Under the pieces are notes generated by a model, which was given only the letters and a program-made list of their open reading frames with translations, had not been told where the DNA came from and did no database searches. The translations under genes were made by a program, and so were the position numbers. A stretch of DNA of 64,000 nucleotides from Ensifer adhaerens (GTDB lineage Bacteria > Pseudomonadota > Alphaproteobacteria > Rhizobiales > Rhizobiaceae): NCBI RefSeq assembly GCF_002007205.1, contig NZ_LAZS01000005.1:434001-498000 (forward strand), in the 5' to 3' direction. This document shows positions 8,761 to 43,916 of this stretch, one piece after another; positions within the stretch are counted from its first letter, which is position 1; each line of letters begins with the position of its first letter.

Positions 8761-10659
8761 GTGAACTGGTCCAGGCCTCTCAGAGTGCATCTCAGCGTGC
8801 TGGTCGTCGCCCTGCTGCTGCTGACGGCAACACCGATCATCTGGATGGCGTTCAGCCAGGGGCGACAGGCGGCGATCCTTGCCGGCGAGAAGCACATGCG
8901 CGAGATGAGCCTCAGGCTGATCGAGGGCTACAGGAATGCGCTGGAGGGCGGCCACGAGGCGGTCGCGCTCGCCTCCACCGTGCCGCAGCTTGCCGTCGCG
9001 CCGCCCGGAGACCTGCAGCCGAAGGTGCAGTTCTTCCTCGAAGTGCTCAGAAGCGTTTCCAACGCGACGAGCGTCTATGCCGGTTATCCCGATGGTTCCT
9101 ACCTGCTCAACACGGGGCGGGACTATGTTCGCCAAAGTCTGGCGGCACCGGCAGGCACCGCCTTTGCCGTCCGCTTGCTCGCCCAAGGCAAGGACGGGGG
9201 CATCGTCTCGACCCTTCGGTTCCTCGACGGGCAAGCCAGGCAGATCGGGGAGCGTCCGTTCGAGCGGACGAATTTCGACCCGCGGCAGAGCCCCTGGTAT
9301 CAGACGGCGTTGCGAACCGGCGGTCCGGTTTCCGTCGGCCCCTATGTCACGGGAACGCTGAAGGTTCCGACGCTGGCGCTTGCCGCTCCGCTGAAGGGCC
9401 AGGAGGGGATCGTGGTCGGCACCAACATCCACCTTCAGACCATCAGCCGCCTGCTCGATGCGCGACAGATCTCGCCGCGCGCTCGGTCCTATGTCGTCGG
9501 CAGCGATGGCGAGCTCGTCGCCCATTCCGACCCGGCGCTGATGAGCACGATCCTCGGCGCCTGGTCGGGCGGCGGCGGGGCCGGCATGCGCAGCCTCGAT
9601 CCGAGCCTCGACGTCGTCGCCGGACTGCGCAAAGATCCCGCCTATCAGACCGGCGGTCTTGCCGAAGCCGATTTTGCCGGCGAGCGATATCTGGTCCAGA
9701 TGGCGCCGGTCAGCGTTTCCGGCCTGTTCAAGGGCAGCTCGGTTGCGATCGTCGTGCCGTTGCAGGACCTGGTGGCGCAGGCAAACCGGCTGCTGGTGCG
9801 CAACCTCATGATTGCCGCGGGCGTGCTGGTGGCCGGCGTGGTCGGCTCGCTCATGCTGTCACGCGTGATCAGTCGCAAGCTCTATCACCTCGCCGACGAG
9901 GCGCGGCGGATCGGCGACCTGAACTTTGCCGGCACGGACGCCCCGCATTCCTGGATCACCGAGATCAACACGCTTGGCGGCGCGCTTTCCGCCAGCCGTC
10001 GTGCCATCGTCCAGTTTGCCCTCTATGTGCCGCGCGAGGTGGTGCGGCGGATCATCGATCCCGAGGGCGGGGCGGCTGTCCGAGGCAGGCGACAGGAGGT
10101 GACGGCACTTTTTACCGACGTGCGCGACTTCACCACCATTTCCGAACAGCATTCGCCGGAGGAGGTCGTCGACATCCTCTCGGCCTATTTCGAGATGCTG
10201 AACACGGTGGCCGAAGAATACCACGGAACGGTGATCCAGTATCTCGGCGACAGCATCTTCGTCATCTGGAACGCGCCCGTTGCCGATCCGCAGCACATCG
10301 AGAACGGCTGTCATTGCGCGCTGGCGATGAAGGCGGCGGTCGATCGCCTGAACGAGACCAACCGCAGAAGCGGCCGGCCGGAACTGTTCACGCGCTTTGG
10401 CGTGCATACGGGGCCGGCGGTCGTCGGCAGCTTCGGCGCGATCGCGCGCCAGCAATACACGGCCATGGGCGACACCATCAACGTCGCCTCCCGGCTCGAA
10501 GGGCTGAACAAGGAGTTCAACACCTCGATCCTGGTGAGCGGGGCGGTGCATTCTGCGGTTGCCGACCTCTTCGACTTCCGCGCCATGGGGATGGTGCACG
10601 TGAAGGGGCGCTCGGGCGGCATCGACCTCTGGGAGCTGGTGGGCTCGAACGCCCGTTAG
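8761..10659 (+). CDS. membrane adenylate/guanylate cyclase with Cache sensor and HAMP
   Basis: A 632-residue class III nucleotidyl cyclase starting at GTG 8761. A transmembrane helix spans residues about 9-29, followed by an extracytoplasmic dCache-like sensor (about 35-335) with the QSPWYQTALRTGGPVSVGPYV segment typical of Cache domains. A second membrane helix (about 347-368) leads into a HAMP-like linker and the cyclase domain from about residue 440. The two metal-binding Asp residues are in ALFTDVRDFT, and the domain continues with YLGDSIFVIWNAP and YTAMGDTINVASRLEGLNK. It likely makes cAMP in response to a small periplasmic ligand. It is monocistronic. Confidence 0.9.
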   Translation: MNWSRPLRVHLSVLVVALLLLTATPIIWMAFSQGRQAAILAGEKHMREMSLRLIEGYRNALEGGHEAVALASTVPQLAVAPPGDLQPKVQFFLEVLRSVSNATSVYAGYPDGSYLLNTGRDYVRQSLAAPAGTAFAVRLLAQGKDGGIVSTLRFLDGQARQIGERPFERTNFDPRQSPWYQTALRTGGPVSVGPYVTGTLKVPTLALAAPLKGQEGIVVGTNIHLQTISRLLDARQISPRARSYVVGSDGELVAHSDPALMSTILGAWSGGGGAGMRSLDPSLDVVAGLRKDPAYQTGGLAEADFAGERYLVQMAPVSVSGLFKGSSVAIVVPLQDLVAQANRLLVRNLMIAAGVLVAGVVGSLMLSRVISRKLYHLADEARRIGDLNFAGTDAPHSWITEINTLGGALSASRRAIVQFALYVPREVVRRIIDPEGGAAVRGRRQEVTALFTDVRDFTTISEQHSPEEVVDILSAYFEMLNTVAEEYHGTVIQYLGDSIFVIWNAPVADPQHIENGCHCALAMKAAVDRLNETNRRSGRPELFTRFGVHTGPAVVGSFGAIARQQYTAMGDTINVASRLEGLNKEFNTSILVSGAVHSAVADLFDFRAMGMVHVKGRSGGIDLWELVGSNAR

Positions 10660-41035: not shown

Positions 41036-41518
41036 GTGAGCGTTGCCTTCACCAAGGAAGAAAGTGCCGAAACCGCGGCGGAGACGTTGTTGCCGGACCG
41101 ACCGGTTTCGCCGCATCCGAACCTGGTGACGGAAGCCGGGCTGAAGGCGCTGGAGGTGCTGCTTCAGGAGGCGCGCACGGCCTATGAGGCGGCGGCCGCG
41201 GTCGACGACGTGAACGAAAAGCGGCGCCAGCAGGCGGGGCCTCTGCGCGACCTGCGTTACCTCAACGAACGGCTGCGCACCGCGCAGCTGATGCCCGAGC
41301 CCACGTCCACCGAGGTCGTCGCCTTCGGCAGCACGGTGACCTTCAGCCGTGACGACGGGCGGGTGCAAAAATACCGGATCGTCGGCGAGGACGAGGCGGA
41401 CCCCAAGGCGGGGTCGATCTCCTATGTCTCGCCGGTGGCGAGGATCCTGATGGGCAAGGCGGTGGGCGACCTGGTCCAGGTCGGCGACCAGGAGCTCGAG
41501 GTCGTGGCGATTTCCTGA
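41036..41518 (+). CDS. GreA/GreB-family transcription elongation factor
   Basis: A 160-residue Gre factor from GTG 41036. The N-terminal coiled coil spans residues about 30-85 (LVTEAGLKALEVLLQEARTAYE to LRYLNERLRTAQLM), followed by the FKBP-like C-terminal domain (VVAFGSTVTFSRDDGRVQKYRIVGEDEADPKAGSISYVSPVARILMGKAVGD). The acidic tip between the coils has DDVNEKRR. It binds the RNA polymerase secondary channel and stimulates transcript cleavage. It is probably a second, accessory Gre protein given its solitary setting. Confidence 0.88.
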   Translation: MSVAFTKEESAETAAETLLPDRPVSPHPNLVTEAGLKALEVLLQEARTAYEAAAAVDDVNEKRRQQAGPLRDLRYLNERLRTAQLMPEPTSTEVVAFGSTVTFSRDDGRVQKYRIVGEDEADPKAGSISYVSPVARILMGKAVGDLVQVGDQELEVVAIS

Positions 41519-41562: not shown

Positions 41563-41630
41563 ATCGCATCCGATTTAATAGCGTCATCTTGACATTCTCC
41601 TGTTCTCGGTATTTATGTCGCATCCGATCT
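41563..41630 (+). promoter_or_regulatory. promoter of DUF3095 gene flanked by two OhrR-type boxes
   Basis: Box ATCGCATCCGATT at 41563-41575, then -35 TTGACA at 41589-41594, -10 TTTATG at 41612-41617 (17-base spacer), then box TCGCATCCGATCT at 41618-41630. The same box, order and spacing occur at the ohr promoter (43408-43492). This suggests peroxide-responsive repression of the DUF3095 gene by OhrR. Confidence 0.65.
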
Positions 41631-41711
41631 AAATTGGCGGCACCGGATTCATGGACGCACCCGCCGGTGGCTGCGAGATGGCCCGTCGGGTCGTCGGCAC
41701 GGAGGTGAGAA

Positions 41712-42743
41712 ATGCACAGCAATGGTGATGCCGCGCCGGTTCGCGCCTATCGCGAGTTTTCTCGCGTGCTCGATCCCGATGTCTACGAGCCGCTGCCGGA
41801 CGACTGGCTGATCGGCATCACGGACGTGGTCAATTCCACCGGCGCGATCCGGGCCGGGCGCTACGAGGACGTCAACTATGTCGGCGCCTCGGCGATTGCC
41901 GCGATCGGCAACGCGCGCGGCGATTTCGATTTTCCCTTCGTGTTTCGCGGCGACGGCGCGGCCTTTGCGCTGGCGCCGGGCGGGAAGGCGATGGCAGGTT
42001 CGGCGCTGCGGCAGCTCGCCGCCTTTGCAAAGGACCGGTTTGGTCTTGAGCTGCGCGTCGGCCTGCTGACGGTCCGGGACATCCGGGATCATGGCCAGGA
42101 TGTGCGGATCGCCCGCTACGCCGCATCGGAAAACGCGACCTATGCGATGTTTGCCGGCGGCGGGCTCAAATGGGCGGAGGGCCAACTGAAAGAGGGGCGC
42201 TACCTGCTTGCGCCGGAAAGCCCAGGTGCGGAACCGGATCTCACCGGCCTTGCCTGCGAATGGCGGCCGTTTCCAAGCCGCCAGGGGCAGATCCTGTCGC
42301 TCTTGGCCGAACCCGCCGACGACGTGGCGCCCGAGCGCTTTGCCGCCGTGGCGCGCGCGGTGATCGCCGTCTTCGACCAGGGACCGCGGCAGTCGCATCC
42401 GCTGCCCGAAGAGGTGGGCGTGCCGAAGGACGAGCGGCTGCGGGTTGCGCCCGAGCGCTGGGCCGGCGTCGCCGCCAGCTCCGATTTTCGCAAATACGAC
42501 GATGGCCTGCGATTGACGGTGGATTGCACCGTCGAACAGATCGACCGCATCCAGGCGATCCTCGCGGCTGCCAAGCTGCGCGGCGAGGTCAATTTCGGGC
42601 TGCACCGGCAAAGCCACGCGCTGATGACCTGCCTCGTGCCGTCGGCGCGACCCGATGCGCACTTACATTTTCTCGACGGCATGGATGGAGGCTATGCCAA
42701 GGCGGCGGAAATGATGGCGCCGCGCAACCGGATCAGCGCCTGA
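41712..42743 (+). CDS. DUF3095-family protein (cyclase-fold-like)
   Basis: A 343-residue soluble protein of the DUF3095 family, with GITDVVNSTGAIRAGRYEDVNYVGASAIAA near the N-terminus and FRGDGAAFALAPG. The Asp in ITDVVNST and the Gly-Asp in RGDGA sit where class III cyclases bind metal, so a nucleotide-related function is conceivable but unproven. The segment before SSDFRKYDDGLRLTVDC (residues about 235-258) appears shorter than in family members I recall. The promoter carries two boxes identical to those at ohr, which points to organic peroxide control. Confidence 0.8.
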   Translation: MHSNGDAAPVRAYREFSRVLDPDVYEPLPDDWLIGITDVVNSTGAIRAGRYEDVNYVGASAIAAIGNARGDFDFPFVFRGDGAAFALAPGGKAMAGSALRQLAAFAKDRFGLELRVGLLTVRDIRDHGQDVRIARYAASENATYAMFAGGGLKWAEGQLKEGRYLLAPESPGAEPDLTGLACEWRPFPSRQGQILSLLAEPADDVAPERFAAVARAVIAVFDQGPRQSHPLPEEVGVPKDERLRVAPERWAGVAASSDFRKYDDGLRLTVDCTVEQIDRIQAILAAAKLRGEVNFGLHRQSHALMTCLVPSARPDAHLHFLDGMDGGYAKAAEMMAPRNRISA

Positions 42744-42878
42744 TCCGGCGAAACGGCAAGGGCGGCGGCGAGCCGCCCCCGGGCGCGATGCCGATGGCCC
42801 GAACGCCGCGTCGGGCCCTTGCGCGATCGATATCGAGCAAGGAGTGCCGCAGGTGCTAGGGCGCTTCCCCGAGTTCCG

Positions 42879-43367
42879 TTATTCCTTCCTTGTTCCAGGT
42901 TGGCCGGCGCCGAGCAGGTTGTCGCGCAGCTTTGCCACCGACTGCTGCACCGTGCCGAACTCGTTGCCGAGGCCGATGGTGTCGGTCAGCGCGGCACCCG
43001 GATCCGCATCCACCACGGCCTGGCCGGCCGGCGTCAGCGTCAGCCGTACCTGCCGTTCGTCTGCCGGATCGCGTCGGCGCTGAAGGTAACCGTCGGCCTC
43101 GAGCTTCTTCAGGATCGGCGTCAGCGTGTTCGATTCCAGGAAGAGCTTTTCGCCAAGCATGCCCACCGTCTGGTCGTCCTCTTCCGACAGCGCCACCAGG
43201 GTGACGTACTGGGTATAGGTCAGGCCCAGCTTGTCGAGCAGGGGCTTGTAGGCGCGGCCGAAGGCGAGATTGGCCGAATAGATCGCAAAGCACAGGAAGC
43301 TGGAGAGCTTCTTGCCGCCCTTGGTCTTAGCTGCGCCCGGCTCCTTGGCTGACTTGGATGTGGACAT
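42879..43367 (-). CDS. ohrR: OhrR, organic-peroxide-sensing MarR-family repressor
   Basis: A 162-residue MarR protein of the OhrR type. The peroxide-sensing Cys26 is in LSSFLCFAIYSANLAFGRAYKPLLDKLGLTYTQY. The winged helix reads VGMLGEKLFLESNTLTPILKKLEADGYLQRRRDPADERQVRLTLT. Oxidation of this Cys by organic hydroperoxide releases the repressor from DNA. It is divergent from ohr. A conserved box at 43408-43420 lies 40 bases before its start, suggesting autorepression. Confidence 0.94.
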   Translation of the reverse strand: MSTSKSAKEPGAAKTKGGKKLSSFLCFAIYSANLAFGRAYKPLLDKLGLTYTQYVTLVALSEEDDQTVGMLGEKLFLESNTLTPILKKLEADGYLQRRRDPADERQVRLTLTPAGQAVVDADPGAALTDTIGLGNEFGTVQQSVAKLRDNLLGAGQPGTRKE

Positions 43368-43407
43368 GGGAATCTTTTTTCCTTTTCGCTATCGGCACTT
43401 AATATAA

Positions 43408-43492
43408 ATCGTATCCGATTAAATCGCAATGGTGTTGACGCTCTCTCAAGCTTTGCGTATATACATCGCATCCGATTGAAGCGGATGCGATT
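43408..43492 (+). promoter_or_regulatory. ohr promoter with OhrR boxes
   Basis: Box ATCGTATCCGATT (43408-43420), -35 TTGACG (43435-43440), 17-base spacer, -10 TATATA (43458-43463). A double box follows at 43465-43492 (ATCGCATCCGATT, AAG, CGGATGCGATT), which forms an inverted repeat with 10-bp arms. A repressor bound there would cover the transcription start of ohr. Confidence 0.8.
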
Positions 43493-43520
43493 AAAAAATC
43501 AAACAGAGAGGAAAATGCAC

Positions 43521-43916
43521 ATGACCGAGAAGCTCGTTTTCACCGGCAAGACCCACAACACCAGCGGCCGCAATGGCGGCACCGTCAGCAGCGACGGCAC
43601 GCTGAACCTGAAGCTGCCGCAGCCGCATCCGGCCGCCGAAAACCTGTTCGGCGCCGCCTGGTCGGCCTGTTACATGGGCGCGATCGAGCTTGCCGCCCAG
43701 CAGCGCAAGGTGAAGCTTCCGGCCGGCCCCGAGGTCGACACCGAGATCGACCTCAACGTCAAGGACGGTTCCTACTTCCTGCGCGCCCGCATGAACGTTA
43801 CCCTTGATGGTCTCGACCGCGACATCGCCCATGAGATCATCCACGCCGCCCACGAGATCTGCCCCTACTCCAAGGCAGTGCACGGCAACATCGACGTCGA
43901 GACCAACCTCGTCTAA
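43521..43916 (+). CDS. ohr: organic hydroperoxide resistance protein Ohr
   Basis: A 131-residue OsmC/Ohr-family thiol peroxidase. Both catalytic Cys are present: SACYMGAIELAA and HEICPYSKAVHGN. The N-terminus EKLVFTGKTHNTSGRNGGTVSSDG is typical of Ohr, with the Arg that orients the peroxidatic Cys expected in this segment. ATG 43521 has AGAGAGG at 9 bases; ATG 43515 is only 3 bases from it. The enzyme reduces lipid and other organic hydroperoxides using lipoylated proteins. It is repressed by the divergent OhrR. Confidence 0.94.
   Translation: MTEKLVFTGKTHNTSGRNGGTVSSDGTLNLKLPQPHPAAENLFGAAWSACYMGAIELAAQQRKVKLPAGPEVDTEIDLNVKDGSYFLRARMNVTLDGLDRDIAHEIIHAAHEICPYSKAVHGNIDVETNLV

Follow-up and report, generated by a model that had tools for sequence, protein, structure and literature searches.

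DUF3095 of rhizobia is very probably under the same peroxide-sensing OhrR switch as the adjoining ohr gene

In rhizobia and their relatives, DUF3095 is very probably controlled by the same peroxide-sensing switch as the ohr gene that adjoins it. Our analysis concerns a stretch of 64,000 nucleotides from Ensifer adhaerens (the window), in which it is very likely, judging from the operators at both promoters, that the neighbouring OhrR controls DUF3095. DUF3095 is an uncharacterised family, and the literature searched gave no mention of DUF3095, PF11294 or pfam11294. With the predicted peroxide-sensing switch the family gains a first likely physiological role, and since the switch is defined and probably inducible, the function of DUF3095 becomes directly testable. 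The genes follow one another in the order greA-type gene, DUF3095 (plus strand), ohrR (minus strand) and ohr (plus strand), and the parts of the locus are as follows (half-sites are scored against the ideal).

41036..41518, plus strand: greA-type gene (NF004973, PRK06342; 291.7 bits against a cut-off of 159), the upstream neighbour, outside the module
41563..41584, plus strand: left predicted operator of DUF3095, ATCGCATCCGATTTAATAGCGT; half-sites 8/8 and 5/8
41589..41594, plus strand: -35 of DUF3095, TTGACA, placed by eye with relatives aligned
41610..41617, plus strand: -10 region of DUF3095, TATTTATG, placed by eye; TTTATG (17-nt spacer) or TATTTA (15)
41617..41638, plus strand: right predicted operator of DUF3095, GTCGCATCCGATCTAAATTGGC; half-sites 7/8 and 3/8, the distal half decayed
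41712..42743, plus strand: DUF3095 (PF11294), 343 aa, of the short, ohr-linked subfamily; its model resembles fused cyclase/palm domains
42879..43367, minus strand: ohrR, a regulator of the MarR/OhrR type with a single Cys (Cys26)
43408..43429, plus strand: left predicted operator of ohr, ATCGTATCCGATTAAATCGCAA; half-sites 8/8 and 6/8, within a weakly predicted minus-strand ohrR promoter
43435..43463, plus strand: ohr promoter, TTGACG (-35, 43435-43440), 17 nt, TATATA, placed by eye
43465..43491, plus strand: right predicted operator of ohr, the long inverted repeat ATCGCATCCGATTGAAGCGGATGCGAT; half-sites 8/8 and 7/8
43515..43916, plus strand: ohr, organic hydroperoxide reductase (TIGR03561; 114.3 bits against a cut-off of 88.85)

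A promoter scan did not call the promoter of ohr or that of DUF3095. It did give, on the minus strand, a weak promoter-like site for ohrR (43429-43401; 1 such site vs 0.4 in shuffles), which overlaps the left ohr operator.

From the operators, their geometry, their conservation and the gene linkage, all of which are observed, we infer binding by OhrR and peroxide as the inducer. Reduced OhrR (42879-43367) would bind pairs of palindromic operators of the ATCCGATT-N-AATCGGAT type. In each pair the RNA polymerase site would lie between the two, the first operator standing before the -35 and the second immediately behind the -10, and such a pair is found at the ohr promoter and at its sister promoter before DUF3095. 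OhrR would repress ohr, DUF3095 and its own gene. On oxidation of Cys26 by an organic hydroperoxide it would release the DNA, and Ohr and DUF3095 would be made together. In our opinion there is a high probability that the locus is one OhrR regulon of this kind, with repression of ohr, DUF3095 and ohrR lifted by organic hydroperoxide.

The starting point was the original prediction that one box occurs at both the ohr and the DUF3095 promoters, and this is confirmed. The exact box TCGCATCCGAT occurs three times in the whole window (at 41564, 41618 and 43466) where 0.08 copies are expected, a count that none of 100 shuffles reached, and all three copies fall at the ohr/DUF3095 locus. The upstream copy at ohr, at 43409, reads TCGTATCCGAT and is one base off. 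The pattern TCGYATCCGAT has four matches in the window against 0.13 expected, and again 0 of 100 shuffles reach that number. When two mismatches are allowed, the window contains 36 matches vs 37.06 expected, which is chance level. The signal thus resides in exact and near-exact matches together with their position, and for the same reason the exact, one-mismatch and strict palindrome forms were used instead of the two-mismatch search. Counts of the reversed pattern were not used as a control, because such a control is unfair to a palindrome.

Certain details of the layout needed correction. The box indeed lies upstream of the -35 at both promoters, but the distance from box to -35 is 15 nt for ohr and 14 nt for DUF3095, not 14 and 13 as first given. 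A box indeed follows the ohr -10, but the "double copy" described there is a single inverted repeat, ATCCGATT-G-AAGCGGAT, whose half-sites are self-complementary at 7/8 positions. The geometry of the two promoters, claimed to be nearly the same, is close rather than identical, with box-to-box distances of 54 nt at DUF3095 and 57 nt at ohr. Because the distal halves of the DUF3095 operators are imperfect (right 3/8, left 5/8), the predicted binding of OhrR at DUF3095 may be weaker than at ohr.

The full operator is best seen in relatives. When inverted repeats of 4+4 bases were counted in 59 upstream regions, CGAT-3-ATCG was present in 49, GATT-1-AATC in 48 and ATCG-4-CGAT, which is the box itself, in 44. 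The aligned promoters mostly read ATCGYATCCGATTAAATCG.., a few nucleotides, TTGACA, about 17 nt, TATTTA or something similar, and finally CGCATCCGATTNAATCGGATRCG, intact or decayed. It follows from these alignments that the box noted earlier is half of a larger palindrome centred on GATT-N-AATC. As read from the aligned promoters, the true unit is a longer palindrome of the OhrR type, ATCCGATT-N-AATCGGAT, which stands once before the -35 and a second time immediately behind the -10. Its layout recalls the OhrR site TACAATT-AATTGTA given for Agrobacterium tumefaciens in the available text of PMC5201249, although the letters differ.

How specific this operator is can be judged from whole genomes. 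The original prediction would have been in difficulty if the box were a common genomic repeat, and it is not: the strict operator ATCCGATTNAAKCG occurs twice in the 6.87-Mb genome, both times at ohr, and of the 40 site rows listed for 16 genomes of the genus 38, all but L145 and L150, fall at the ohr/ohrR/DUF3095 locus. Some of the 40 rows are the two strands of one palindrome, and rows were assigned to the locus by tblastn of the loci or by nearness to DUF3095 coordinates. Three genomes of the genus (G005, G011, G012) have no short DUF3095, yet carry the operator at ohr/ohrR (L159, L156, L152). The operator is therefore a feature of ohr/ohrR, to which DUF3095 is an optional addition. By the strict pattern the regulon in the genus is very small, consisting of ohr, ohrR and, where present, DUF3095. 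In 45 other genomes there are nine strict-operator rows, and the seven for which loci were taken show no ohr, ohrR or DUF3095 nearby (the other two rows are in G027). The pattern ATCGNATNCGAT is matched perfectly at 15 places in the 6.87 Mb, three of them at the locus (41563, 43408, 43465). Eleven of the other 12 fall inside mechanically called ORFs longer than 150 aa on either strand and one, L126, lies in none; this last site (L126:3005, G000:C19:535604) is flanked by divergent ORFs and is not at the ohr locus. Several of the genomes look identical to the assemblies of named loci (e.g. G010/L035, G003/L044), thus the counts for relatives and for genomes are not independent samples.

Conservation of the boxes was followed in the best 80 of 286 relatives plus the window, which comprise 59 loci of the short subfamily and 22 of the long one. 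The expectation that boxes would precede DUF3095 orthologues next to ohr is borne out in this sample: with up to one mismatch allowed, the 300 nt before the DUF3095 unit contain a box in 53/59 short loci and in 0/22 long ones. A perfect box is found in 44 and two or more boxes in 37 of the 59 short loci, and neither in any of the 22 long ones. As background, 761 of 11,400 random 300-nt windows of linked loci, promoters included, contain a box. Linkage divides the same 81 loci in a similar manner. An ohr homologue (identity down to 49%) is within 4.5 kb in 57/59 short and 0/22 long loci, DUF3095 directly follows ohr in tandem (gap below 400 nt) in 45/59 and 0/22, and an ohrR homologue is present in 50/59 and 0/22. 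The only tandem ohr-DUF3095 locus in this sample without a box is L082. Fourteen short loci have no ohr directly upstream; nine of these have boxes, and none is found in L083, L084, L085, L087 and L086, the last being cut by a contig end. The sample includes Ensifer adhaerens ST2 (L035), whose DUF3095 is 92% identical to that of the window. In the family sample, identity to the window protein is below 50% for most of the other DUF3095 matches.

Plasmid loci of another collection were also compared (6 of 249 matching records). In S. fredii (L200) and Phyllobacterium (L201) both ohr and ohrR are present, with boxes ahead of ohr. The stretches taken from S. meliloti plasmids (L202, L203), R. grahamii (L204) and Rhizobium sp. 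BG4 (L205) contain no ohr or ohrR; L202 to L204 have no box upstream of DUF3095, and L205 has a single one-mismatch match with other letters, 264 nt upstream.

It could be argued that the DUF3095 promoter of the window is a relic of a lost upstream copy of ohr, left from an ancestral order ohr-DUF3095-ohrR-ohr, and that its operators are now functionless. Five loci of the best 80 relatives plus the window do have this order (L044, L045, L063, L076, L081), the closest kin of the window group with them in the tree, and the decay of the distal half of the right operator points the same way. However, the -35, the -10 region and the proximal half of the right operator are kept in the window, L035 and L036 although the flanks have diverged much, and a second Rhizobium lineage, too, retains boxes before a DUF3095 with its own promoter. 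The tree requires two changes for this own-promoter arrangement, both forced by well-supported branches. It comprises 61 of the 81 sequences, with L042, L060, L072 and L086 omitted and the long subfamily thinned to 6 of 22. The own-promoter label was set with box positions known, hence the box content of this group is not independent evidence, while its two origins are. We therefore regard functionless operators as improbable, and the origin from a relic may be right even if that part is wrong. In the same sample, L042, L060 and L072 each show one in-frame stop in DUF3095 as read, which may reflect gene loss, sequence error or the chosen frame ends.

Control by the neighbouring OhrR is the reading that we prefer. 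The ohrR product matches the MarR domain PF01047 with 56.7 bits against a cut-off of 24.6, and scores below the cut-off of the NCBIfam OhrR equivalog NF052638 (107.5 vs 200 bits), the name of which suggests a Vibrio-centred family. Its Cys aligns with the Cys of Xanthomonas campestris OhrR in structure 2pfb (the position is Ser in 2pex), and so does the Tyr pair, named as Tyr36/Tyr47 in the available text of PMC5201249. The MarR fold is shared with the OhrR proteins of X. campestris and Bacillus subtilis. The X. campestris protein is a 2-Cys OhrR, unlike the window protein, which is of the 1-Cys type that the available text of PMC7141136 gives for B. subtilis OhrR. Among the best 80 of 286 relatives plus the window, 49 of 51 ohrR readings, the window's included, have a single Cys; the two exceptions, L050 and L068, contain one Cys more. 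In this sample ohrR has its own box in 21/21 genes divergent from ohr and in 29/30 that are not, which ties the box to OhrR autoregulation.

That the box is read by a different regulator, for example another MarR/OhrR paralogue, of which the genome has three more (56, 49 and 46% identity), we consider very improbable, given the box before non-divergent ohrR genes, the lack of any box with up to one mismatch at the loci of these three paralogues (L133, L134, L135), and the motif GCAAATTAATTTTG in place of the box at a second ohr/ohrR pair of the genome.

This second pair, at C19, is 36 and 49% identical to the window pair and has an exact GCAAATTAATTTTG between its genes. According to the available text of PMC3107159, S. 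meliloti OhrR binds GCAAATTAATTTTG and GCAAATTGCTTTGC. By inference the C19 pair would be the S. meliloti-type one, and if it is taken as such, the OhrR of the window is a paralogue with its own operator; judged by its operator, the window locus is a separate 1-Cys OhrR module. At this locus (L129, L132) motifs of the GCAAATT.. or TACAATT-AATTGTA type are absent, and ATCCGATT-N-AATCGGAT is found instead. The S. meliloti system (SMc00098/SMc00040) nevertheless resembles that predicted for the window in the divergent ohr-ohrR arrangement with two intergenic operators and a repressor freed on oxidation (PMC3107159); it differs in its motifs.

EstR and SydR, as far as the available texts describe them, are precedents for OhrR-type paralogues that differ in their operators. 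As predicted for the OhrR of the window, A. tumefaciens EstR is an OhrR paralogue with two operators of its own, released by organic hydroperoxide. One, OI, covers the estC -10 and the other, OII, lies at -46 to -82; but EstR is a 2-Cys protein, its operator is GTTATCGCGATAAC and its target is an esterase (PMC5201249). S. meliloti SydR, a MarR repressor that senses redox state and has two operators between divergent promoters, is similar to the predicted system of the window, but it has two Cys and the operator TATCGCGATA; it answered NaOCl, and its binding stayed intact with H2O2 and tBOOH (PMC11633110). The predicted operator of the window is thus an OhrR-type site unlike those described in these texts for S. 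meliloti OhrR, A. tumefaciens OhrR, EstR and SydR, in a genome that also has the S. meliloti type.

What DUF3095 does is a separate question. The protein matches PF11294 with 355.5 bits (cut-off 22.2) in two stretches, with profile positions of about 235-295 skipped; the ohr-linked short form lacks some 45-60 residues which the long form has between its two halves. Its dN/dS of 0.16, both vs L035 and vs L036, indicates purifying selection. The protein alignment was hand-thinned to 49 of the 81 sequences (31 short, 18 long), and the AlphaFold2 model based on 49 sequences has a mean pLDDT of 90.1. In Foldseek the first match is human soluble adenylyl cyclase (E 7.6e-6, probability 1.00, but a TM of only 0.45 and an rmsd of 10.7 A). 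Ranks 1-5 are tandem adenylyl cyclases, with rmsd 8.0-17.6 A and best TM of 0.45-0.46, below 0.5, and rank 6 is Csm1 (Cas10). Eight matches are under E 0.001, and GTP cyclohydrolase III comes next at 1.4e-3. Like the tandem C1/C2 cyclases and Csm1, the model appears to consist of two fused cyclase/palm-like domains.

The term "cyclase-fold-like", used for the family at the outset, thus has the support of Foldseek, with the reservation about TM, and none from sequence or profile comparison. PF00211 is not among the Pfam matches of 49 DUF3095 members, and hhalign of DUF3095 with 19 cyclase domains taken from this genome gives a probability of 2.04% at most (reversed control 0.2-0.4%). Searches of PDB sequences with phmmer and a profile, and of NCBIfam, offered no route to a function. 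Invariant in the 19 cyclase domains are two Asp residues at a distance of 44 and the Asn-x3-Arg. In DUF3095 (77 of the 81 sequences from the best 80 of 286 relatives plus the window, L042, L060, L072 and L086 being omitted) D38 and D81, 43 apart, are invariant in 77/77, their cyclase-like role being assigned by position, not by superposition. Equally invariant are G80, G82, R115, G149-151, D258, D263, D264, D271, Q300, C307, H319 and D322. There is no conserved Asn-x3-Arg: N67 and R115 are the only invariant Asn and Arg, and with the spacing of cyclases the motif would fall at positions 153 and 157, which are variable. Given the likeness of fold and the Asp pair, without Asn-x3-Arg or sequence kinship, we suggest that DUF3095 would work like a nucleotide-handling palm enzyme and do not class it as a class III cyclase. 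On the model and on conservation, it is probably a metal-dependent enzyme with two fused cyclase/palm-like domains and D38 and D81 as metal ligands. The window also contains a PF00211 cyclase-domain match at 10087-10614 (G000:C18:444087-444614), one of 32 such matches in the genome.

The missing Asn-x3-Arg, the variable positions 153 and 157 and the lack of a sequence match to cyclases would also suit a protein that makes no nucleotide product and is a nucleotide-binding or catalytically retired partner. We consider this possible but rather unlikely, since D38, D81 and the further invariant residues resemble a live site.

If DUF3095 is indeed an active enzyme, one may speculate, with considerable doubt, that when induced by peroxide it produces or alters a nucleotide signal; a pulse of organic hydroperoxide would in this way give rise to a second messenger beside Ohr, with the NUDIX hydrolase commonly found after ohrR clearing the signal or sanitising oxidised nucleotides. 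Should such an activity be true, a peroxide-induced cyclase-like enzyme would be new. In the literature searched we found no link between OhrR and a cyclase, and the word "cyclase" is absent from the available text of PMC3557214.

Among the best 80 of 286 relatives plus the window, a NUDIX hydrolase lies near ohrR in 23/59 short loci (e.g. L046:6080-6496, minus strand), and in 20/59 it starts no more than 150 nt past the end of ohrR on the same strand. An epoxide hydrolase homologue occurs in 17/59 (e.g. L041:6605-8029, L057:6205-7506), and one adjoins DUF3095 on both ohr-less stretches of S. meliloti plasmids (e.g. L202:4974-6242). Such neighbours would fit a module that detoxifies oxidised lipids and nucleotides. 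Beside DUF3095 of the long subfamily (10 proteins scanned at five loci) nothing recurs but alpha/beta hydrolases, of which there are two (L093, L108). The genome itself has a second DUF3095, which belongs to the long subfamily and lies away from the window (G000:C2:55528-56643).
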